A stretch of DNA of 64,000 nt from NCBI GenBank assembly GCA_903844635.1, contig CAIMUF010000074.1, positions 186,001 to 250,000 on the forward strand. The letters run 5' to 3'. The position numbers and the translations under genes were made by a program. Under the pieces are notes generated by a model. That model did not search any database. It was not told the origin of the DNA and saw nothing but the letters and a program-made list of their open reading frames with translations. Positions 3,703 to 45,303 of the stretch are shown piece after piece; the stretch's first letter is position 1; every line of letters begins with the position of its first letter. The stretch comes from an uncultured Sulfuricurvum sp. (lineage in GTDB: Bacteria; Campylobacterota; Campylobacteria; Campylobacterales; Sulfurimonadaceae).

Positions 3703-5963
3703 TGAAAATTTTTATTTTTATTTTATTTATCCTTACCTCTTTGATAGCCGAAAAAAGTGCCGAAAAAGTATCGGTACAGCTTGATTGGAAATATCAGTTT
3801 GAGTTTGCCGGATTTATTGCAGCAAAAGAAAAAGGATTTTACCGTGATGCAGGTCTGGATGTAACCCTGCGTGAATACCATGACGGTATTGATATCGGTG
3901 CAGATGTTTTAGCGGGTAGATCGACGTATGGCGTGTACAATTCCAGTATTATGGTTGAGAATGGACGTGTAAAACCAATTGTCTTGATGGGAACGTATTT
4001 TCAACACTCTCCACTTATTTTTGTTGCACGTAAAGGGATTAAAAATCCAAGTGACATGATAGGCAAGACAATAATGGGAACAACTTACGAGCTCAAATAC
4101 AGCTCTTTAGCCCTCTTGCTGAATCATTTTAGTATTTCGCCTAAAAATGCTCACTTTGTTGATCATACTTTTAACATTCAAAATTTCATTGATGGAAAAG
4201 TCGATGTTATGAGTGCTTTTCGTTCCAATCAGCTCTATGAACTTGATCGTAGGGGTATTGAGTACGAAATTATTGATCCGTCACAATACGGATTTATGAT
4301 GAGTGCAGTCAACCTTTTTACTTCTCCACTGGAGGCGATTGAACATACCGATCGAACACAGCGGTTTATTGATGCGACAAATCGCGGATGGAAATATGCG
4401 CTTGATCACCCAGATGAAATGATTGATATTCTCATTCATAAATACGCTGCTCAGAAATCACGTAATGCTCTGAAGTATGAGGCGAAAGTAACAAAACAGC
4501 TGGTGATGACCGATTTTTATCCCATCGGTGAAGTCAATTCTGAGCTGACAGTCCGAGCGTTTAAACAGCTCATGCAAACCGGTGCGCTTAACGGTGATCA
4601 GAAGCTGGGTCGCTATATGTTTAAGGACATAGCTGTCAATTCTCGTGAAAATATTGAGTTTACAAGTGCTGAGAAAAACTATCTTCTCGAAAAGAAAAAA
4701 ATTACGATGTGTGTGGATCCTGAATGGTATCCGCTCGAAGCAATACGTGATGGAAAACATATCGGAATGGCAGCGGATGTGATGCATGTTTTCGAAAAAC
4801 AAATTTCTATACCCATCGAGTTAGTACCGACGATGTCATGGAATCAATCGCTTTTGTATGCAAAAGAGCGGAAATGCGACATTTTATCGCTTGCGACAAC
4901 TGCCCCTGAGAGATTGAAATATATGAATTTTACCTCTTCGTATTTGAGTATTCCTTACGTTATGCTAACGACAAATGAGAAGCCTTTTGTCGAAGATATT
5001 AGGTCATTAACAAAAGAAAAAATAGGAATCGTCAAAGGATATTCCACTGTCGGTATACTAAAAGAGCATTATCCACATTTAAATATTGTAGAGGTCAATT
5101 CGATTACTGAGGGGTTAAGCAAGGTAGAAAGCGGCGAGTTGTATGGCTATGTCGATAATTTGATTGTGGTATCTTCGTACATCCAAAAAGAATATACGGG
5201 AGTTTTAAAGGTATCTTCACGACTTGATGAAAAAGATGAATTGTGTGTCGGTACCCGTAATGATGAACCATTATTATACGGTGTATTTGAGAAAATGGTC
5301 AAAAATATTGATACTGCTGTGATGCAAAGTATCTATAACCGTTGGGTGTCAACAGTCGAAGAAATATCATGGTTCGATCGTGGGGCTTTTTGGAAATTTC
5401 TTTTTATTCTTATCGTGGGTATTTTGGCATTTACATGGCGTTATCTTTTATTGAAGCACCACAATGCTCAACTGCGAAAACTTTCTATTACTGATAAGTT
5501 AACGGGATTGTATAATCGTCAGAAAACGGACATTATTCTCATTAATGAGCAAAAAAAGGTGAATCGATATCGTGATTATCATTGTTCGGTGATGATGATT
5601 GATGTCGATAATTTCAAAGTCATTAATGATACGGTAGGGCATCAGGCAGGGGATAATGTTTTGGAAACTTTGGCCAGTATTATGAAAGACAACCTTCGAG
5701 CTACTGATATATTGGGTCGTTGGGGCGGAGAAGAATTTATTGTCATTTTACCTCATACCACTACGGAAGATGCGATGGCGGTTGCGGAAAATTTTCGACG
5801 TAAAATAGAAAAATCTTCGTTCAGTTTAATAAATCAGGTGACGGTTAGTATCGGCGTAGGAGAATTTATTCAAAACGAAAGTGTACATGAGTGTGTAGGA
5901 AGAGTGGACAGTGCTTTATATGAGGCAAAAGAGAGCGGTCGAAATAGAGTGTGTAAAGCGTAA
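3702..5963 (+). CDS. Periplasmic-binding-domain diguanylate cyclase (NMT1-SBP3-GGDEF)
   Basis: A 753-residue membrane sensor. A signal peptide (1-17) precedes an NMT1/THI5-like solute-binding domain (about 24-240: VQLDWKYQFEFAGF, then AAKEKGFY). A second binding domain of the SBP_bac_3 type follows (about 330-550: CVDPEWYPLEA, later YVDNLIVV). One membrane helix (about 561-583) leads to a cytoplasmic GGDEF domain (DKLTGLYNRQ, GGEEF near 671). An I-site RATD lies five residues before GGEEF, the usual position for product inhibition, so it should be an active, feedback-controlled cyclase. The gene overlaps the FIST-GGDEF-EAL gene by one base (TAATG), so a cyclase and a likely phosphodiesterase are translationally coupled. 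The ligand is unknown; the NMT1 fold suggests a pyrimidine- or taurine-like compound. Confidence 0.9.
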   Translation: MKIFIFILFILTSLIAEKSAEKVSVQLDWKYQFEFAGFIAAKEKGFYRDAGLDVTLREYHDGIDIGADVLAGRSTYGVYNSSIMVENGRVKPIVLMGTYFQHSPLIFVARKGIKNPSDMIGKTIMGTTYELKYSSLALLLNHFSISPKNAHFVDHTFNIQNFIDGKVDVMSAFRSNQLYELDRRGIEYEIIDPSQYGFMMSAVNLFTSPLEAIEHTDRTQRFIDATNRGWKYALDHPDEMIDILIHKYAAQKSRNALKYEAKVTKQLVMTDFYPIGEVNSELTVRAFKQLMQTGALNGDQKLGRYMFKDIAVNSRENIEFTSAEKNYLLEKKKITMCVDPEWYPLEAIRDGKHIGMAADVMHVFEKQISIPIELVPTMSWNQSLLYAKERKCDILSLATTAPERLKYMNFTSSYLSIPYVMLTTNEKPFVEDIRSLTKEKIGIVKGYSTVGILKEHYPHLNIVEVNSITEGLSKVESGELYGYVDNLIVVSSYIQKEYTGVLKVSSRLDEKDELCVGTRNDEPLLYGVFEKMVKNIDTAVMQSIYNRWVSTVEEISWFDRGAFWKFLFILIVGILAFTWRYLLLKHHNAQLRKLSITDKLTGLYNRQKTDIILINEQKKVNRYRDYHCSVMMIDVDNFKVINDTVGHQAGDNVLETLASIMKDNLRATDILGRWGGEEFIVILPHTTTEDAMAVAENFRRKIEKSSFSLINQVTVSIGVGEFIQNESVHECVGRVDSALYEAKESGRNRVCKA

Positions 5964-5976
5964 GTAAGCGTACACT

Positions 5977-6068
5977 CGTCATTCCCGCCTACGCGGGCGA
6001 AGTACTCTTTTGGGTGTATCCAGCTGGATTCACCCGAGGGCACTTCGCCCGTTTTCACGGGAATGACG
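5977..6068. repeat. 92-bp nested palindromic repeat
   Basis: Outer arms CGTCATTCCCG and CGGGAATGACG enclose CGGGCGAAGT / ACTTCGCCCG, which enclose GGGTGtATCC / GGATtCACCC around AGCT. The whole element can form one long hairpin or cruciform. It belongs to the dispersed family also seen at 8052, 52914, 57632 and 58970. It lies between convergent genes and may end transcription from both. Confidence 0.85.
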
Positions 6069-6080
6069 AAAGTATCTTTA

Positions 6081-6359
6081 TTAATTGGATTTAGTGTTTT
6101 GAGTTGCCAATGTCGCCGTATAGCCTGTTTGGGCTACAGCATCTTGCATCATTTTTAAATTCACGGTATCCTCGGTATTTACCAAAGCACTTTCATTTTT
6201 AAAATTTACTTTTGCCTCTTGGACACCGTGAACACTAAGCAGTGCTTTTTTGACCGCCAATGTGCAGGCGATGCAGTGCATCCCGCTGATATGCAGACTC
6301 CACTCTTTTGGGTAAGCGAGAGAAGCTAAGAGTAGTAGTCCCAGTGTTATTCTCCCCAT
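6081..6359 (-). CDS. Periplasmic heavy-metal-associated (MerP-like) protein
   Basis: A 92-residue protein with an N-terminal signal peptide (about 1-17, ending near LAYPKE) and a single HMA domain. The metal-binding motif GMHCIAC (about 26-32) is the CxxC of MerP and copper chaperones. Its gene overlaps the end of the TusA-MerT fusion gene by 13 bases, so the two are coupled, matching the merT-merP pairing of mercury uptake systems. No merA or merR is seen, so the metal or thiol-reactive substrate is uncertain. It is the last gene of the minus-strand selenium/metal cluster. Confidence 0.8.
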   Translation of the reverse strand: MGRITLGLLLLASLAYPKEWSLHISGMHCIACTLAVKKALLSVHGVQEAKVNFKNESALVNTEDTVNLKMMQDAVAQTGYTATLATQNTKSN

Positions 6360-21588: not shown

Positions 21589-22245
21589 TTACGCTACAAT
21601 TTTACAGCCTGATTCGCCATTAAAAAAGTGGAAACATGTTTGTGAAATGGCTGGAAACTTCGAGTGAAATCTACACTCATATTTTTGACTACGTGCTAAA
21701 GTATCAATCAAAGTCGATCTTTTCACCTCAAAAGTTCGGCATACAGCTGCTTTTGACATTCCATTATTTAGAGCTTCGAGAATAGCATCCATTTTTTCTT
21801 GAGGAATCGCTCGCGGTCGTCCGCCGATACGTCCTCGTTTTTTTGCAGCAACAAGCCCAGCATTAACTCTCTCTTTTATCAAAGACCGTTCAAACTGTGC
21901 TAGTGCACCAAATACATGAAATAATAATTCTCCTGAAGGAACTGATGTATCCATTCCTTCAGTCAGAGACTTGAATCCAATACCTTTAGATTTCAACTGA
22001 TTTACTATCTCAATCAAATGTTGAAGCGATCGTCCGAGGCGATCAAGTTTCCACACGACAAGTGTATCGCCAGCTTTAACATATCCAAGTGCTTGTGCCA
22101 AACCGACACGATCATCTTTGGCTCCGGAAGCTTTATCTTCAAAAATATGTCGTTGATCTATTCCTGCACTAATAAGTGCATCAAGTTGGAGATCCGTACT
22201 CTGATGATCACTATCGGTTGAAACTCGCATATATCCTATCAGCAT
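21589..22245 (-). CDS. Serine recombinase (resolvase/invertase type)
   Basis: A 218-residue site-specific recombinase of the small serine family. The N-terminal catalytic domain shows the nucleophile Ser in MRVSTDSDHQSTDLQ, VWKLDRLGRS and ERSLIKERVNAGL. A C-terminal helix-turn-helix (MSKAAVCRTFEVKRSTLI) completes the resolvase plan by about residue 185. The last 28 or so residues (from about KYECRF) are translated from the right end of the IS21-family element, so the natural C-terminus was replaced. The DNA-binding domain is whole, so activity may remain. It probably belongs to another mobile element whose other parts were lost. Confidence 0.88.
   Translation of the reverse strand: MLIGYMRVSTDSDHQSTDLQLDALISAGIDQRHIFEDKASGAKDDRVGLAQALGYVKAGDTLVVWKLDRLGRSLQHLIEIVNQLKSKGIGFKSLTEGMDTSVPSGELLFHVFGALAQFERSLIKERVNAGLVAAKKRGRIGGRPRAIPQEKMDAILEALNNGMSKAAVCRTFEVKRSTLIDTLARSQKYECRFHSKFPAISQTCFHFFNGESGCKIVA
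21622..21675. repeat. IS21 right-end terminal repeats
   Basis: GTGGAAACATGTTTGTGAAAT, then TGGAAAC, then GAGTGAAATCTACA at the tip, the inverted counterparts of the left-end motifs. The resolvase reading frame runs through this segment. Confidence 0.75.
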
Positions 22246-22410: not shown

Positions 22411-22755
22411 CTAGGATGCTCTCATGAGCATCCCCTGATAAACCTTCGATTTCTTAACAGCTTTCCCCTTCCTAACCTCACCATGATGGAACCATTCCCA
22501 CTCGGAACTTTTTTCGTCATTACAGGCGGTAATCATCAATAAAATGCTCTCACCGCTGGAATCCACAACACTCCTTACAAACACAAAGCTATGTCCGTGA
22601 CGCACGATTATAATGGAGGATGATTGTCCTAAAACAATCTTCCCATTTTTCACAACATCCTGCGCAAACCGAAGTGCTGCTTCTTTAGTCTTGATACCTA
22701 AACGCTTACTGAGCCGTTTTTGGGCATGATGGGTTAGTTTGACCTGTAAAATACC
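22411..22755 (-). pseudogene. Small conserved-type protein, 5' end disrupted
   Basis: The open frame continues upstream of the only usable start (GTG 22653) as VKLTHHAQKRLSKRLGIKTK..., which reads like genuine protein, back to an in-frame TAG at 22756-22758. No ATG, GTG or TTG lies between the stop and 22653. In the shifted frame an ATG upstream (about 22786) runs into TAA soon after. The likely explanation is a frameshift or small indel near 22745-22758, next to the palindrome CCCTATAGGG. From 22653 the protein is 80 residues with KIVLGQSSSIIIVRHGHSFVFV. A perfect hairpin (GGATGCTC/GAGCATCC, 22414-22433) covers its 3' end. Function unknown. Confidence 0.5.
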
Positions 22756-22801
22756 CTATAGGGCACGAACCTCTTTGAGGTGATTGCATGTAGCCTTCCT
22801 T

Positions 22802-22912
22802 TTATTGTCCGCTCAGTGCCCAATAAGCACTGAGCGCTAATCCGCCGCCAAACACGACGACATCCAAACCAATAAGCAGCAAGGCAATCCTCTTCCAATA
22901 TCGTTTAATCAT
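22802..22912 (-). CDS. 36-residue membrane miniprotein
   Basis: ATG 22912 overlaps the stop of the upstream gene by four bases (ATGA) and encodes 36 residues: a basic start (MIKRYWKR), one strongly hydrophobic helix (about 9-30, with VVVFGGGLAL) and a short tail ending in ALSGQ. The tight coupling and a clear membrane-helix design support a real gene. It is last or next to last in the minus-strand small-gene operon. No family recognised. Confidence 0.55.
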   Translation of the reverse strand: MIKRYWKRIALLLIGLDVVVFGGGLALSAYWALSGQ

Positions 22913-23442
22913 TTCTCATTACCTCCATCTTTTCTCCCCTTCCACTGAGTAAAACTCTCAAATTCACCCTCAAATTCTTCTCGCTCTTGGCGGTATTGCT
23001 TATATTCCTCAATATCAAATGTTTCTGAGGCTTTCGGATTGCTGTATACTCGCTCCTCAATGATCCTTGCACACTCAGCATCATCCGCCATTTCTATTGC
23101 AAAGTGCTCGATGGAAAGTTCAATCACACGACTCATGGTGTAGACTTTTCTCTCATCCCCATCAAAACACGCTTCGAGATGTTTAAGTGCGGAGTCGGGC
23201 ATTTTGAAATACCATTTATGAGGATCATAGTCTTTACCTAAACCGGTAATATCATTGACAAATGCCATATACTCTTTATCATGACTGGCTATCTCTGCAC
23301 CTATTTCCCAACGCCGAATTTCTGCCTCATCCTGTACTTTTTTCTTTTTACGCTCTCTATCGCTTTTGTAGAGACTGTACATTGCGAACCCTATCGCGAT
23401 AACGAGTACGATCATGTTGATAATTTGTAATGTTTGTGACAT
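22909..23442 (-). CDS. Single-pass membrane protein of unknown function
   Basis: A 177-residue protein with one N-terminal membrane helix (about 5-23), a basic stretch (KSDRERKKKK) and a soluble, acidic C-terminal domain with regular helices ending in a charged coil (about EEYKQYRQEREEFEGEF). A start at 23469 would add nine residues. ATG 23442 is preferred because AAAAGGA lies seven bases upstream. It overlaps the 36-residue miniprotein gene by four bases. No known domain recognised. Confidence 0.65.
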   Translation of the reverse strand: MSQTLQIINMIVLVIAIGFAMYSLYKSDRERKKKKVQDEAEIRRWEIGAEIASHDKEYMAFVNDITGLGKDYDPHKWYFKMPDSALKHLEACFDGDERKVYTMSRVIELSIEHFAIEMADDAECARIIEERVYSNPKASETFDIEEYKQYRQEREEFEGEFESFTQWKGRKDGGNEK

Positions 23443-23485
23443 GGTGAATCCTTTTATTTTTGTTTTCATTTTTTTTATTGTGCTA

Positions 23486-23668
23486 CTAAAACCAATCCAG
23501 CCACCGTTTTATCTTTGGGTCATTGGGATACAAGACGATGTAACTCACTAGAAACCCAAGAGTAAAGGCACACCCACTGTTGATCCAATCTTTCGTGGTA
23601 TCTCCTGTGAGGGCAAATACAAACCCGGGTACAAAAAACACCATCCCGATAAATATCCATTTCATCAT
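23486..23668 (-). CDS. Small two-helix membrane protein
   Basis: Sixty residues with two hydrophobic segments (about 3-20 and 32-48) separated by GDTTKDWINSG, and a tail PNDPKIKRWLDWF. ATG 23668 or 23665 could start it; neither has a strong ribosome site, so coupling to the upstream gene (stop at 23675) is likely. Part of the minus-strand membrane-protein operon; no family recognised. Confidence 0.6.
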   Translation of the reverse strand: MMKWIFIGMVFFVPGFVFALTGDTTKDWINSGCAFTLGFLVSYIVLYPNDPKIKRWLDWF

Positions 23669-23674
23669 GGTGTC

Positions 23675-24097
23675 TCAATCATTACTATTGATGTTGTAAA
23701 CCGGTTTTGTCTCTGAGAGCCATGCTGCTATCACGGCTACAATAATCACGGCACCCATCGAAATAGGGATGTAAAAGATCATTTGTGCCAAAGAACCGGC
23801 AATGGCATAAATTTTGGGGGCTTGTTTGAAGTTGTTGATGATCACTCCCATGAGTAGAAGTACTCCAACCGCCAATACAATTGCACCATTGAGCCAATCA
23901 TTATTATTTGCCAGTGCCGTTTGCATCCAACTGTTTCCAAAGAACATCAGGGCATACGAGAAGACCATAGCAACGGAATGTTCTTTGGTGAAGAACTCAT
24001 ATTGGGCATGATGATAGGTGTATTTATTAAACCATAGGATAAATGTATAAATGGTGAAAGCTGCTGCTAGCAATCCCATAAGAGTCAGTATTAACAT
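23675..24097 (-). CDS. Four-helix membrane protein of unknown function
   Basis: A 140-residue polytopic protein with four predicted helices (about 2-22, 42-60, 70-88 and 104-128). The first loop holds KYTYHHAQYEFFTKEH, rich in His and Tyr. AAGGAG precedes the ATG with good spacing. The start overlaps the previous gene's stop by seven bases. The second helix has the pattern MVFSYALMFFGNSWMQ. I recognise no family; it may be a pore or scaffold component of the small-gene operon. Confidence 0.65.
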   Translation of the reverse strand: MLILTLMGLLAAAFTIYTFILWFNKYTYHHAQYEFFTKEHSVAMVFSYALMFFGNSWMQTALANNNDWLNGAIVLAVGVLLLMGVIINNFKQAPKIYAIAGSLAQMIFYIPISMGAVIIVAVIAAWLSETKPVYNINSND

Positions 24098-24348
24098 TTG
24101 GGCTCTCCTTGATTATTTTTATATTGGTAAGTATCGATTTGCTCTTGTGTAATACCGCTCTTACACCATCCGCGTTTGATATCACTGTTATTAAGCCATC
24201 TTCCAATGGCTCCTGCAATTCCGATCAATACCAATGCGCCGCCAATGATGATTTCGCTATAGCAATTTACATTACAGACAGGAGAAAAAAGAGCAAAGAT
24301 ACCCGTGACAATTGCGATGAGTAGTAGCATGAGTAGATTTTTAGTCAT
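24091..24348 (-). CDS. Two-helix membrane protein with cysteine pair
   Basis: An 85-residue protein. ATG 24348 has GGGAG six bases upstream and is preferred over 24369. Two hydrophobic segments (about 4-22 and 32-50) flank a short loop with two Cys (SPVCNVNCYSE). The tail has two more Cys (GWCKSG and the final C). It overlaps neighbours on both sides (eight and seven bases). Function unknown. Confidence 0.6.
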   Translation of the reverse strand: MTKNLLMLLLIAIVTGIFALFSPVCNVNCYSEIIIGGALVLIGIAGAIGRWLNNSDIKRGWCKSGITQEQIDTYQYKNNQGEPKC

Positions 24349-24535
24349 AATAATCTCCCATAAACTCATTGAGTTCTTTTAAATCAGGATCGGTTCTATA
24401 CAGCTCTGCCATTTCCGCTGCACCTTTACGGATTTTTTCTTTACGCTTTTCTCTATTTTTCTCACGAGTTTTATCCTCATCACTCACCGGTGCTACGGTA
24501 CTGATATTTGTACTGTTACTGTCGTTTTTATTCAT
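24341..24535 (-). CDS. Small charged soluble protein
   Basis: Sixty-four residues, highly charged in the middle (KTREKNREKRKEKIRKGA) and acidic at the end (DLKELNEFMGDYYD). AAGGAAG lies well placed before the ATG. One of the few non-membrane products in this operon, possibly an RNA- or partner-binding helix. No family recognised. Confidence 0.6.
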   Translation of the reverse strand: MNKNDSNSTNISTVAPVSDEDKTREKNREKRKEKIRKGAAEMAELYRTDPDLKELNEFMGDYYD

Positions 24536-24547
24536 GGTGACTTCCTT

Positions 24548-24784
24548 TTACCTATGATCGGAGGTGTGATACCCCCGTTTATATTTTTGAGCAACAAGAA
24601 CTATCATCTGTTCCTTTGCCTCTTGGGGGCTTTCATAAAGCTCACTGATGACTCTGGTGGGTTTGGCACAACTACATGAACCGTAAGTACGAATCAGCAG
24701 TGTCTCTCCAAACAAGTTAGGAATCAGTTCGATTTGGTAATAGCGCTCACGGGCGTTAAGGGTTCGCTTCATCATGAGTTTCAT
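24548..24784 (-). CDS. WGR-like domain protein
   Basis: A 78-residue protein that reads as a single WGR domain: YYQIELIPNLFGETLLIRTYG, then a turn, then PTRVISELYESPQEAKEQM and a final KYKRGY. These are the strand and helix landmarks of WGR domains, which bind nucleic acids in PARPs and in bacterial proteins near MolR. The usual W/Y-G-R core is YGS here, followed by CSCAKPTR, so the Arg is displaced and two Cys are present. It starts four bases after the RNase H-like gene ends. Role inferred only from the fold. Confidence 0.6.
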   Translation of the reverse strand: MKLMMKRTLNARERYYQIELIPNLFGETLLIRTYGSCSCAKPTRVISELYESPQEAKEQMIVLVAQKYKRGYHTSDHR

Positions 24785-24788
24785 GGTG

Positions 24789-25493
24789 TTATGCCGCTAC
24801 TATTACTCGACACTCATACGCTGAGTCTTCAAACCAGCTCATATCAAAGTTGGAACCTTTGAGCAGTTCGTCGTAATACTTTTGTTTATAGCATTGGATG
24901 TTGCTAAAGTGCTCGGAGAGCTTTTTATGCAGACTCTGGGATCCGGCATACATCAACAAGGCAATAATCTTCTCATTCACCTCTTTGATATTATTGGGAT
25001 ACGGTTTGCTCATAGGTGCTGTGCCACTGATAGCACAAAGGTATCCATACGTTTGTCCACGGGTTAAGGGCATCAATGCACTGACAAGTTCTTCATCGCT
25101 GATTTGACTTGCATGGGTAAGAATCAGTTTGGTCCAGTTGGCATTGCTGCTTTTAGAAAGCCTAGCCCCGCAAGCAAGACGATCGACTTCATGGAGGTAG
25201 TCACGCTTCATCCACAAAAACTGTATCTTCTCAAACATCGGTTTGTAAAACATACCAAGGGCTTGGGTATCGATATTGATGTCATCATAGACAAACACAC
25301 AATTACGGTGGTTATGGGTAAGCGCATGATTGATAGCTTCCAATAACGCAAACTCCTCGGCTTCATGCACGCTGTGAGCATGCATAAAGATGGACAGACA
25401 CAGACCGGTAGAGAGGTTTTTAACCCCGATACCGGCTTCTTTGGTACTATGATCGTAAGAAGCATCGCTTAGATAGATGACATTATTGTCCAT
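24789..25493 (-). CDS. RNase H-like fold protein
   Basis: A 234-residue protein. The first 110 residues follow the RNase HI pattern: IYLSDASYD (first acidic residue), EAEEFALLEAINHAL (Glu in the first helix), FVYDDINID (Asp after the third strand) and KRDYLHEVDRLA (His/Asp near the last helix). All four acidic positions can be assigned, so nuclease activity is possible. The remaining 120 residues are helical and unfamiliar. ATG 25493 is preferred, with AAGGG eight bases upstream. It lies amid membrane-protein genes, overlapping the upstream gene by 11 bases. Confidence 0.6.
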   Translation of the reverse strand: MDNNVIYLSDASYDHSTKEAGIGVKNLSTGLCLSIFMHAHSVHEAEEFALLEAINHALTHNHRNCVFVYDDINIDTQALGMFYKPMFEKIQFLWMKRDYLHEVDRLACGARLSKSSNANWTKLILTHASQISDEELVSALMPLTRGQTYGYLCAISGTAPMSKPYPNNIKEVNEKIIALLMYAGSQSLHKKLSEHFSNIQCYKQKYYDELLKGSNFDMSWFEDSAYECRVIVAA

Positions 25494-25833
25494 GGGAATC
25501 ACCCTTAGGGGGGTTAGTCATCACCTCTGCTTCTTGGATTTTTTGTTTCTCTTCTTCCGCTTCAATCTGGGCAATACGTTTGAGTGCTGCGTTGATCCGC
25601 TGTTTAATCTTCACTATCATGTAAAGAATCACAACTATGGGAAAGAACAATAAAGCCATCACGTGCCAATATGAATCCACATGTAAAGCAAAAACAGCGA
25701 CTTGTGATCCGATCAAGATTATGAGTCCTGCGATCACTACTTTTATATCTTTAAACATGATGAGCAGATACACAGCGGGAATGATAAAGATCGTTCCCAT
25801 AATGAGCAAAGTGGTGTCATTTATTTCGTTCAT
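25483..25833 (-). CDS. Three-helix membrane protein with charged tail
   Basis: A 116-residue protein with three hydrophobic segments (about 6-24, 30-46 and 54-73) and a charged C-terminal helix (RIAQIEAEEEKQKIQEAE). ATG 25833 has AAGGA seven bases before it and is favoured over 25854. It overlaps the genes on both sides, by 17 and 11 bases. No family recognised. Confidence 0.6.
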   Translation of the reverse strand: MNEINDTTLLIMGTIFIIPAVYLLIMFKDIKVVIAGLIILIGSQVAVFALHVDSYWHVMALLFFPIVVILYMIVKIKQRINAALKRIAQIEAEEEKQKIQEAEVMTNPPKGDSHGQ

Positions 25834-26119
25834 TGTTTTTTCCTTGTTCATCATTGTGCAATTCTTTCATGTCACGAATACAGTTCTTGCTTTCACCATA
25901 AAAAACCCATAGGGCGTAATAGGAAGCCAGTATCATAAAACTAATCCCTCCCAGCAAAATCCACTTAAATTCAAGGAACCAGACAGCCCCTGCAACAACA
26001 ATCGTATGGACACCAATCCAATAGAGCAATGCTTTGCGTAATCCGATAAGGACTAAAGTTCCTAATCCAAGAGTATAAAAGAACAGGCTTATCAGTATTA
26101 ATTGCGTTAATTCATTCAT
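25817..26119 (-). CDS. Three-helix membrane protein of unknown function
   Basis: A 100-residue protein with three hydrophobic segments (about 4-24, 30-46 and 50-70) and a charged tail (NDEQGKNNERNK). AAAGGAG lies six bases before ATG 26119. It overlaps the upstream gene by eight bases. Its plan (three helices, charged tail) resembles that of the next gene, so the two may be distant relatives. Confidence 0.6.
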   Translation of the reverse strand: MNELTQLILISLFFYTLGLGTLVLIGLRKALLYWIGVHTIVVAGAVWFLEFKWILLGGISFMILASYYALWVFYGESKNCIRDMKELHNDEQGKNNERNK

Positions 26120-26558
26120 TATCATCTCCTTTATGCATGCTGCGAAACAAAAAGCTCACGGCTAATAAAACCATATAGGCAAACCCATACAGTACGACAG
26201 AAGGCTCAGGTGCCTCTTGAGCTATGACGTTACAGATCCCAGGGTCATTTTGAATCTGGTCTCCTTTTACAAATCCCAGGTTGGGAACATGTTTCCAGCC
26301 GTTATGAGAATCGATAAGGGCGCTTTCACCTCTCCATAAGCCGCACTCGATAGCTTGACCTTCATTGAAACGCTGTAAGACAAATGCTTTGGCTTGATTA
26401 TTTTCTGAGGTTTTGTATGCAATCACCATAATCATCGTCAAGACAATAACCCCTAGCCACGTCATCTCTATATCTTCCACAAATTGAATCATCAAGAAGC
26501 CTGCAAAGGTAAAGAGTATGATGGGAAGCCATTCCCATCCGTTGATGTATTCAAACAT
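26112..26558 (-). CDS. Membrane protein with extracytoplasmic loop
   Basis: A 148-residue protein with two N-terminal helices (about 11-26 and 31-50), a soluble middle of about 65 residues (with CGLWRGESALIDSH and DPGICNV, two Cys) and a C-terminal helix (about 119-137). ATG 26558 has GGAGG upstream and lies one base after the previous stop. Function unknown. The Cys-containing loop may face the periplasm. Confidence 0.6.
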   Translation of the reverse strand: MFEYINGWEWLPIILFTFAGFLMIQFVEDIEMTWLGVIVLTMIMVIAYKTSENNQAKAFVLQRFNEGQAIECGLWRGESALIDSHNGWKHVPNLGFVKGDQIQNDPGICNVIAQEAPEPSVVLYGFAYMVLLAVSFLFRSMHKGDDNE

Positions 26559-26559
26559 C

Positions 26560-26964
26560 TCACACCTCCGATGTACAAGTGCTGGATATGAACTCAAGAC
26601 GTTCATTGATCACATAGGCTTTGTGTTGACAGATATACCGAGAACGTACTTCTCGCTTCATCATTCCATGGACCTTGTACCACGCAAGCCCCAAGAAGGT
26701 GCGTTTGATAATCAACTCAGCGGGATGTTCACATAAAAGCTTTTCGTAGCTTGAAGAGACTCCATTGTGCTCGTTATAGAGTGTTTGAGTCCCCTCAATG
26801 ATATAACGCCCTTCATCATCAATACTAAGAGTGGCATTGGTAAAGATAGAACTTTGCTCTTCACAGGGGATAAAGTAAAAACGTTCCCCTATTGGATTAA
26901 CAAGTATGCTTTTATGGCTCTCATCAAGTGCGAGATCACAGTTGGTATGGTAAATTTTAGACAT
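26560..26964 (-). CDS. Soluble protein of unknown function, operon leader gene
   Basis: A 134-residue soluble protein, first in the minus-strand small-gene operon. ATG 26964 has GAGGAGG eight bases upstream, the best ribosome site of the cluster, and is favoured over 27018. It looks beta-rich in its first half (ILVNPIGERFYFIPCEE, RYIIEGTQTLY), with a C-terminal part containing ICQHKAYVINERLEF and a Cys near the end. No domain recognised. Confidence 0.6.
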   Translation of the reverse strand: MSKIYHTNCDLALDESHKSILVNPIGERFYFIPCEEQSSIFTNATLSIDDEGRYIIEGTQTLYNEHNGVSSSYEKLLCEHPAELIIKRTFLGLAWYKVHGMMKREVRSRYICQHKAYVINERLEFISSTCTSEV

Positions 26965-27354
26965 GGAAATATCCTCCTCGGATTGGGTCTTTTTTAAAAT
27001 ATCTGGTGACAATGGCAAAAATCTGATCAGGATTTAGGATTATTTGAGAAAGAGAGACGATAGCTAATCACCACTCTTTATCAGGAAAAATTTGAGAACG
27101 TTCTCGGTTGCAACTGAGGAAAGTTTACACTGTTTTTCACTATTGCGCAAGAGCATAAAGTACAAATTTATTCCCTTGAAATGGGAAGATGGAGGCGGTT
27201 GTATTTATATTTAGAGTTAGAAAAGTGAGGGCTTTTTTTTCGGGAATGTCAAGAGCAGAAATACAAATAAAGTCAAAAAAACAAGAATGAAAAACGCTTG
27301 CTTTTCAGCATAAAATGTGCAAGAATAAAAAAATCTATGCAAATAGATTTGAGG
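26965..27354. promoter_or_regulatory. Intergenic region with GAGAACGTTCTC palindrome
   Basis: About 390 bases without a gene, upstream of the small-gene operon and downstream of the gene ending at 27355. A perfect 12-base palindrome, GAGAACGTTCTC, lies at 27094-27105, 130 bases before the operon's first start; it is a good candidate for a dimeric repressor site. The rest is A/T-rich with T- and A-runs (about 27230-27350). I see no clear -10 box or RNA gene. Confidence 0.4.
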
Positions 27355-45227: not shown

Positions 45228-45303
45228 TGGTGGCCAATCTCGGAATCGAACCAAGGACACGCAGATTTTCAATCTACTGCTCTACCGACTGAGCTAATTG
45301 GCC
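45228..45303 (-). tRNA. tRNA-Phe (GAA)
   Basis: A 76-nt cloverleaf on the minus strand with encoded CCA. The acceptor stem is GGCCAAT/ATTGGCC, the D-arm AGCTCAGTCGGTAGAGC, the anticodon loop TTGAAAA (GAA) and the T-arm GGTTCGATTCC. It is the presumed integration target: its 3' end faces the integrase. No second copy of the 3' end was seen in the window. Confidence 0.97.

Follow-up and report, generated by a model that had tools for sequence, protein, structure and literature searches.

The usual site of exclusion genes such as TraS, Eex and TrbK is the conjugation operon. Here we describe a minus-strand operon, rich in small membrane proteins, at 22,411-26,964 of a 64,000-nucleotide stretch of DNA from an uncultured Sulfuricurvum sp. 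(the window, by which we mean the whole stretch analysed). It resembles TraS, Eex and TrbK in that small inner-membrane proteins are encoded on mobile elements, and one relative of its cysteine-pair protein, not the window's own copy, lies in a tra operon. However, no sequence similarity was found between these proteins and the products of the operon, which has many genes, occurs on elements without conjugation genes and also encodes nucleic-acid proteins.

The surface-exclusion gene traT of S. kujiense is reported to be on plasmid pSULKU01, outside a tra operon (PMC11733297), which shows that this species, itself a host of the operon considered here, has mobile exclusion genes apart from tra operons. 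The protein is a different one, however, and the present operon is found on pSULKU02 and pSULKU03 rather than on pSULKU01. TraT and other known exclusion lipoproteins were also sought among neighbouring secreted proteins and lipoproteins, and those tested gave no match.

The block consists of twelve clear genes (22,802-26,964) and a thirteenth (22,411-22,752) that is probably damaged; they are numbered g0-g12 in the order of transcription (Table 1). Six neighbouring pairs overlap by 4-17 nucleotides (g1/g2, g2/g3, g3/g4, g6/g7, g7/g8 and g10/g11), and the remaining spacings from g0 to g11 are 1-12 nucleotides with a single exception of 43. A reading made earlier from the letters of the DNA alone (the sequence-only reading) had described an operon of about 13 overlapping genes here, and its coordinates and gene count were right. 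It had also given nearly every gene its own Shine-Dalgarno sequence, which is true of most starts, where a purine-rich stretch is present, and less so of g4, g5 and g9, where it is weak. Its count of at least eight membrane products agrees with hydropathy, by which g1, g2, g3, g7, g8, g9, g10 and g11 have one to three helices each. Codon comparison with two near relatives gave ratios of nonsynonymous to synonymous substitution rates (dN/dS) of 0.065-0.47 for all genes with measurable dS. These are therefore selected protein genes, not chance frames, and they are under purifying selection.

Table 1. Features of the operon and its surroundings, in window coordinates (aa, amino acids; TM, transmembrane helix)
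Feature	Position	Strand	Description
Promoter and conserved 5' leader of operon	26960-27150	-	common to eight islands (window and seven others)
Twin adjacent palindromes GTTGCAAC, GAGAACGTTCTC	27094-27114		at predicted transcript start (near 27116); compensating changes in relatives
Leader hairpin	27045-27083	-	stem sequence varies between islands, pairing kept (single-sequence folds)
g0	26560-26964	-	soluble all-beta protein, 134 aa
g1	26112-26558	-	3-TM; predicted periplasmic loop with two invariant cysteines
g2	25817-26119	-	3-TM, 100 aa
g3	25483-25833	-	3-TM, 116 aa; charged C-terminal tail
g4	24789-25493	-	predicted RNase H domain (D10, E46, D70, D104), then helical C-terminal domain
g5	24548-24784	-	WGR domain alone, 78 aa
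g6	24341-24535	-	soluble, 64 aa; C-terminal remnant of second g1-type protein
g7	24091-24348	-	2-TM
g8	23675-24097	-	3-TM; has relatives (E 1e-29) on elements from a different Campylobacterota family
g9	23486-23668	-	membrane protein, 60 aa; small family with terminal basic/aromatic tail
g10	22909-23442	-	one TM and soluble region; C-terminal part resembles Phd-type antitoxin tail
g11	22802-22912	-	single-TM, 36 aa
g12	about 22411-22752	-	soluble; HAxxRxxKR motif; probable frameshift near start; relatives intact
Serine recombinase-like gene	21589-22245	-	assigned by eye, without profile search; directly downstream of operon and outside it; one relative in locus L038
Genomic island carrying operon, 26 kb	19091-45095		from comparison with genome G074; adjoins tRNA-Phe (45228-45303)

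Two of the genes appear to be relics. Relatives have a longer g1-type protein whose C-terminus the g6 product matches, and g6 is evidently the leftover end of such a g1 paralogue. The window's g12 has no in-frame ATG and, when the starts of its intact relatives are considered as well, is probably frameshifted near its start.

By profile comparison the gene set matches no known system and is undescribed in the libraries searched. The products other than g4 and g5 had no meaningful match in Pfam, PHROGs, NCBIfam or PADLOC, so that the eight membrane proteins are indeed without a recognisable family. Among the defence-system models of PADLOC-DB 2.0.0 there were only two weak matches, of transmembrane (TM) type, with E about 0.01. 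No relaxase, coupling ATPase, VirB4 or pilin was detected among the operon genes with Pfam, PHROGs and NCBIfam, and PHROGs gave no convincing match to phage structural or morphogenesis genes; tblastn of phage records found nothing for g4, and viral contigs held no relative of g4 or g0. These results uphold the earlier statement that a standard conjugation or secretion system does not account for the operon, and a known phage module does not account for it either.

The same reading had singled out two soluble members as related to nucleic acids, and both assignments stand. The match of g4 to Pfam RVT_3 (E 7e-4) falls slightly below the cut-off. Its AlphaFold2 model (mean predicted local distance difference test score, pLDDT, 86.5) has the canonical five-stranded RNase H fold with strand and helix order intact, followed by a helical domain, and Foldseek aligns it with RNase H-bearing chains of retroviral reverse transcriptases (E 9e-5, prob 1.00). 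In 15-19 relatives three of the DEDD residues (D10, E46 and D104) never vary, and the fourth, D70, hardly ever does. From the model and the conserved residues, g4 is predicted to be an RNase H-fold protein. It shares fold and DEDD residues with RNase HI and RVT_3 proteins and differs from them in the additional conserved helical C-terminal domain, for which a profile search of solved structures returned chance matches only. The g5 product matches Pfam WGR (PF05406) over the full domain, with E 1.1e-6 and 29.0 bits against a cut-off of 22. Stand-alone WGR proteins are encoded on plasmids, and a WGR gene is annotated on the Sulfurimonas aquatica plasmid pSULFM1 too; g5 differs in being part of a membrane-protein operon. 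On pSULFM1 (L160, 3208-14219) genes for a caspase-family protein and an LPP20 lipoprotein are found a few kilobases from the WGR gene and an XRE relative.

The g0 model is all-beta with a pLDDT of 91, and 24 residues are invariant across 17 relatives. Solved structures yielded no significant Foldseek match to this fold, and a second comparison gave Z <= 2.7; we make no claim that the fold is novel.

Members of the g1 family are small membrane proteins in which a loop about 50 residues long carries two invariant cysteines. The loop is predicted to be periplasmic from the positive N-termini of one-helix members. A first g1 profile gave weak single matches in many genomes, which may have been due to the TM helices and were disregarded. 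A loop-only profile, built without the TM helices, was run against 397 Campylobacteria genomes; 22 of them have a match at E <= 1e-10, often with several copies of the cysteine-pair domain per genome, and the number rises to 59 when E <= 1e-3 is allowed. All strong matches that were read lie on mobile elements, Aliarcobacter plasmids included. Typically, such an element has a small XRE gene and, divergent from it, four or five genes of 60-130 aa; these are followed by another small helix-turn-helix (HTH) gene and by genes for secreted proteins or lipoproteins. In L143-L149, on elements of another family, the second HTH gene (85 aa in L144, 7430-10547) is divergent from the lipoprotein and secreted-protein genes beside the membrane operon, and some Sulfuricurvum loci have related HTH genes and genes for other lipoproteins after the operon. 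On the Aliarcobacter plasmid pACRY43158 (L161, 26579-36818) a type II secretion-like set (GspE, secretin, GspF and GspG) lies near the membrane operon.

The loop model without TM helices separates these mobile copies from a weaker class of matches, a chromosomal 3-TM protein related to the g1 loop (hhalign 97.5%, E 8e-12; L133 1414-1818, L136 1309-1683, L137 168-542 and L139 1303-1686). Two members tested gave no Pfam match. In the four places read, the chromosomal genes stand near those for NorB-like cytochrome c, CRP-type regulators, NirDL-type siroheme decarboxylase or an MFS-type transporter. Such surroundings would suit an operon that derives from the chromosomal membrane protein and benefits the host, for instance in envelope stress or in redox or respiratory adaptation of the inner membrane. 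We think this improbable, since the mobile versions are multi-copy and travel with nuclease, WGR or antitoxin partners, and respiratory genes were not seen in the operons read; the chromosomal context, moreover, is that of four places only.

One cysteine-loop gene has a different setting. In L154 (8409-19807), from another genome, a gene of 85 aa lies in a MobF conjugation operon with a TrwC relaxase and a TrwB/TraD coupling protein, flanked by the gene for an S26 peptidase and by other genes for secreted proteins. A cysteine-pair gene inside a MobF/type IV secretion system operon is a hint that the family could take part in exclusion.

Profile and neighbourhood checks across Campylobacterota, proposed with the sequence-only reading, revealed recurrence on mobile elements and no homology to a known conjugation, phage or secretion module. 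Relatives of the g4 RNase H with 75% identity are encoded on pSULKU02 and pSULKU03, and g4 matches were obtained in 13 of the 151 genomes of the family, distant ones included. When the neighbourhoods are aligned, the genes are the same but their order changes from one to another. The carriers are S. kujiense plasmids, other Sulfuricurvum and Sulfurimonas elements and Aliarcobacter plasmids, among them islands with AlpA, DUF3987 and integrase genes; restriction-modification or toxin-antitoxin genes often adjoin the relatives, and g8 and g9 have relatives on elements of another family as well. The island, the plasmids and the recurrence in relatives bear out the earlier view that the small membrane proteins and their nucleic-acid partners are a dedicated set on mobile elements; that they form one complex, as was also proposed, is conjecture.

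The set is not fixed, however. A search with the g0 profile uncovered operons that lack RNase H (L058, L059, L102 and others from a second genus of the family). L058 (6502-10201 of contig C79) is a second operon copy in the window's own genome, with a divergent XRE and an intact g12, while L059 and L102 are both in one other Sulfuricurvum genome. RNase H is likewise absent from L151 and from L152, the smallest version (XRE, g0, g1 and WGR), which is on the S. kujiense chromosome; its genome (G062) was taken as S. kujiense because contigs C2 and C3 match pSULKU02 and pSULKU03 by position. The unit described at the outset therefore recurs as a gene set, with RNase H as optional cargo.

A g5-type WGR gene is present in all 20 Sulfuricurvum-type loci tabulated, and Sulfuricurvum operons that carry RNase H always have WGR with it. 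The g4-g5 block is nearly identical to that of L029 (dS 0.045 and 0), whereas dS for the neighbours g2, g3, g6, g7 and g8 is 0.29-0.52; the two genes, for RNase H and WGR, were therefore exchanged recently and as a pair. Elsewhere the place of the soluble partner is taken by an NYN-domain protein (L060, Pfam E 7e-6) or by a soluble Phd antitoxin-like protein (L063, Pfam E 4e-8). Of the 47 loci tabulated, 28 have an XRE homologue. What recurs is a small gene for an XRE regulator together with genes for several tiny membrane proteins, one family of which has the invariant cysteine pair; the nucleic-acid partner varies. The core comprises XRE, g0, the cysteine-loop protein and often WGR, the nucleic-acid partner being exchangeable.

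RNase H and WGR proteins are also encoded separately, without membrane genes, on the Campylobacterota elements L009 and L042, and ParAB/Rep-type replication genes lie near the operon on pSULKU02 and pSULKU03. Both observations would fit a helper of transfer or replication, in which the membrane proteins anchor the DNA of the element and RNase H and WGR process hybrids during replication or during mobilisation by another element. Such a role seems to us decidedly unlikely. Genes for a relaxase, an ATPase or a pilin are missing from the operon, its carriers in the plasmid collection are classed as non-mobilizable, and RNase H is dispensable; in L040 (9488-9891) its core has been deleted in frame and the C-terminal part kept, and the g0 of the same operon is frameshifted. 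Of the three functions offered by the sequence-only reading (transfer, exclusion and defence), DNA transfer is the least supported, because the carriers are non-mobilizable by type and the operon is without a motor.

The variable partners bear on another explanation, a maintenance module for addiction or stability, with g10 antitoxin-like, g12 the toxin and the small membrane proteins acting as toxins or regulators kept in check by XRE. The soluble Phd protein of L063 speaks for it, as do two genes of L142: one (4871-5413) encodes a g10-like protein with one TM helix and a Phd-like domain (E 2e-4, below the cut-off), and the other (5635-6315) a g0 with an extra N-terminal segment that is only weakly Phd-like (E 0.016). 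Furthermore, relatives of g12 end the operons of L058, L059 and L151. The window's g10 shares a similar tail with Phd/YefM antitoxins, which are represented in two related operons, but it is membrane-anchored and has no Phd match in Pfam; its similarity to Phd proteins is weak (profile comparison with the TM-Phd relatives: 83%, E 9e-6, over 47 columns), and a profile search of solved structures found no match for it. For g12 no toxin family was matched, and a RelE-like reading would rely on the motif. The operon persists nonetheless with a probably frameshifted g12, and ten conserved membrane genes would be left unexplained. We regard a maintenance function as unlikely.

Two promoter types are found among the operons. 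In the window, a promoter TTGCGC-17-TAAACT at 27122-27150 precedes the conserved leader. Changes in the twin palindromes of relatives keep the symmetry even at the innermost pairs, positions unable to pair in RNA, and for this reason the palindromes are probably a DNA operator rather than an RNA hairpin. The leader itself had no match in Rfam. As a consensus RNA it was not sustained: RNAalifold supports few covarying pairs, and the leader hairpin lies outside the consensus. A link between leader and RNase H was also dropped, the two occurring independently. Operons with a divergent XRE have a strong TTGACA/TATAAT-like promoter and repeated ATATRAGTATAT elements. Inverted repeats in the XRE intergenic regions were not above shuffles, and the recurring TATCTA...TAGATA sites, these only, suggest an XRE operator.

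Taking these observations together, we tentatively propose an accessory role in the cell envelope: the operon would serve exclusion of, or immunity against, competing mobile DNA or phage, and so protect the element and its host cell from a conjugating relative or an injecting phage. Of the explanations considered we rank this one first, and hold it to be possible though short of probable. The cysteine-loop protein and the other small inner-membrane proteins would form or modify a periplasm-facing patch of the inner membrane that blocks or senses the entry of foreign DNA. The patch may be coupled to the cytosol by g0 and the membrane-tethered, antitoxin-like g10, and on the cytosolic side the nucleic-acid partner (RNase H and WGR, elsewhere the NYN nuclease or a Phd-like protein) could act on incoming or early-transcribed DNA or RNA. 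Expression would be restrained by a dedicated XRE or, in the window's branch, by the palindromic operator and the structured leader. We count in support of exclusion the mobile carriers, the restriction-modification and toxin-antitoxin neighbours, the copy in the tra operon, the recurrent XRE and the exchangeable partner.

Several points weigh on the other side. For no member of the operon did Pfam, NCBIfam or PADLOC show homology to an established exclusion or defence protein, and to our knowledge exclusion systems need one or two proteins, not ten. Every measurable dN/dS is below 0.5, with no sign of diversifying selection, and the nitric oxide- and heme-type genes near the chromosomal relative of the cysteine loop hint at a respiratory or redox role. 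That an XRE-controlled inner-membrane assembly, with a disulphide-type periplasmic domain and plug-in nucleic-acid effectors, constitutes a new modular barrier or sensor for incoming DNA is a more far-reaching proposal, and a rather unlikely one.

The carrier of the window's operon was delimited by comparison with G074, the closest relative found with this locus. There, the sequences corresponding to 13.6-19.09 kb and 45.10-57.6 kb of the window form one stretch at 92-96% identity, with only about 0.9 kb between them, and 19,091-45,095 is absent; the latter is therefore an island of 26 kb. Its cargo includes AlpA, a DUF3987 protein, an integrase-like gene and an IS21-type pair (identified by eye), together with the restriction-type genes HsdR, HsdM, DUF1016/YhcG, DUF3800 and a KAP NTPase. 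The part from the integrase to a gene of 191 aa upstream of the operon is shared at 79% with the island of L102.

Many of the tiny membrane genes annotated as hypothetical on Campylobacterota plasmids and islands fall into a few families of one modular operon. Should our preferred explanation of exclusion or immunity be true, the operon would represent a variant of element-encoded exclusion or immunity not described before. A function in exclusion or defence would also account for the way in which elements that lack known conjugation genes compete, in a phylum to which the foodborne Aliarcobacter belongs.

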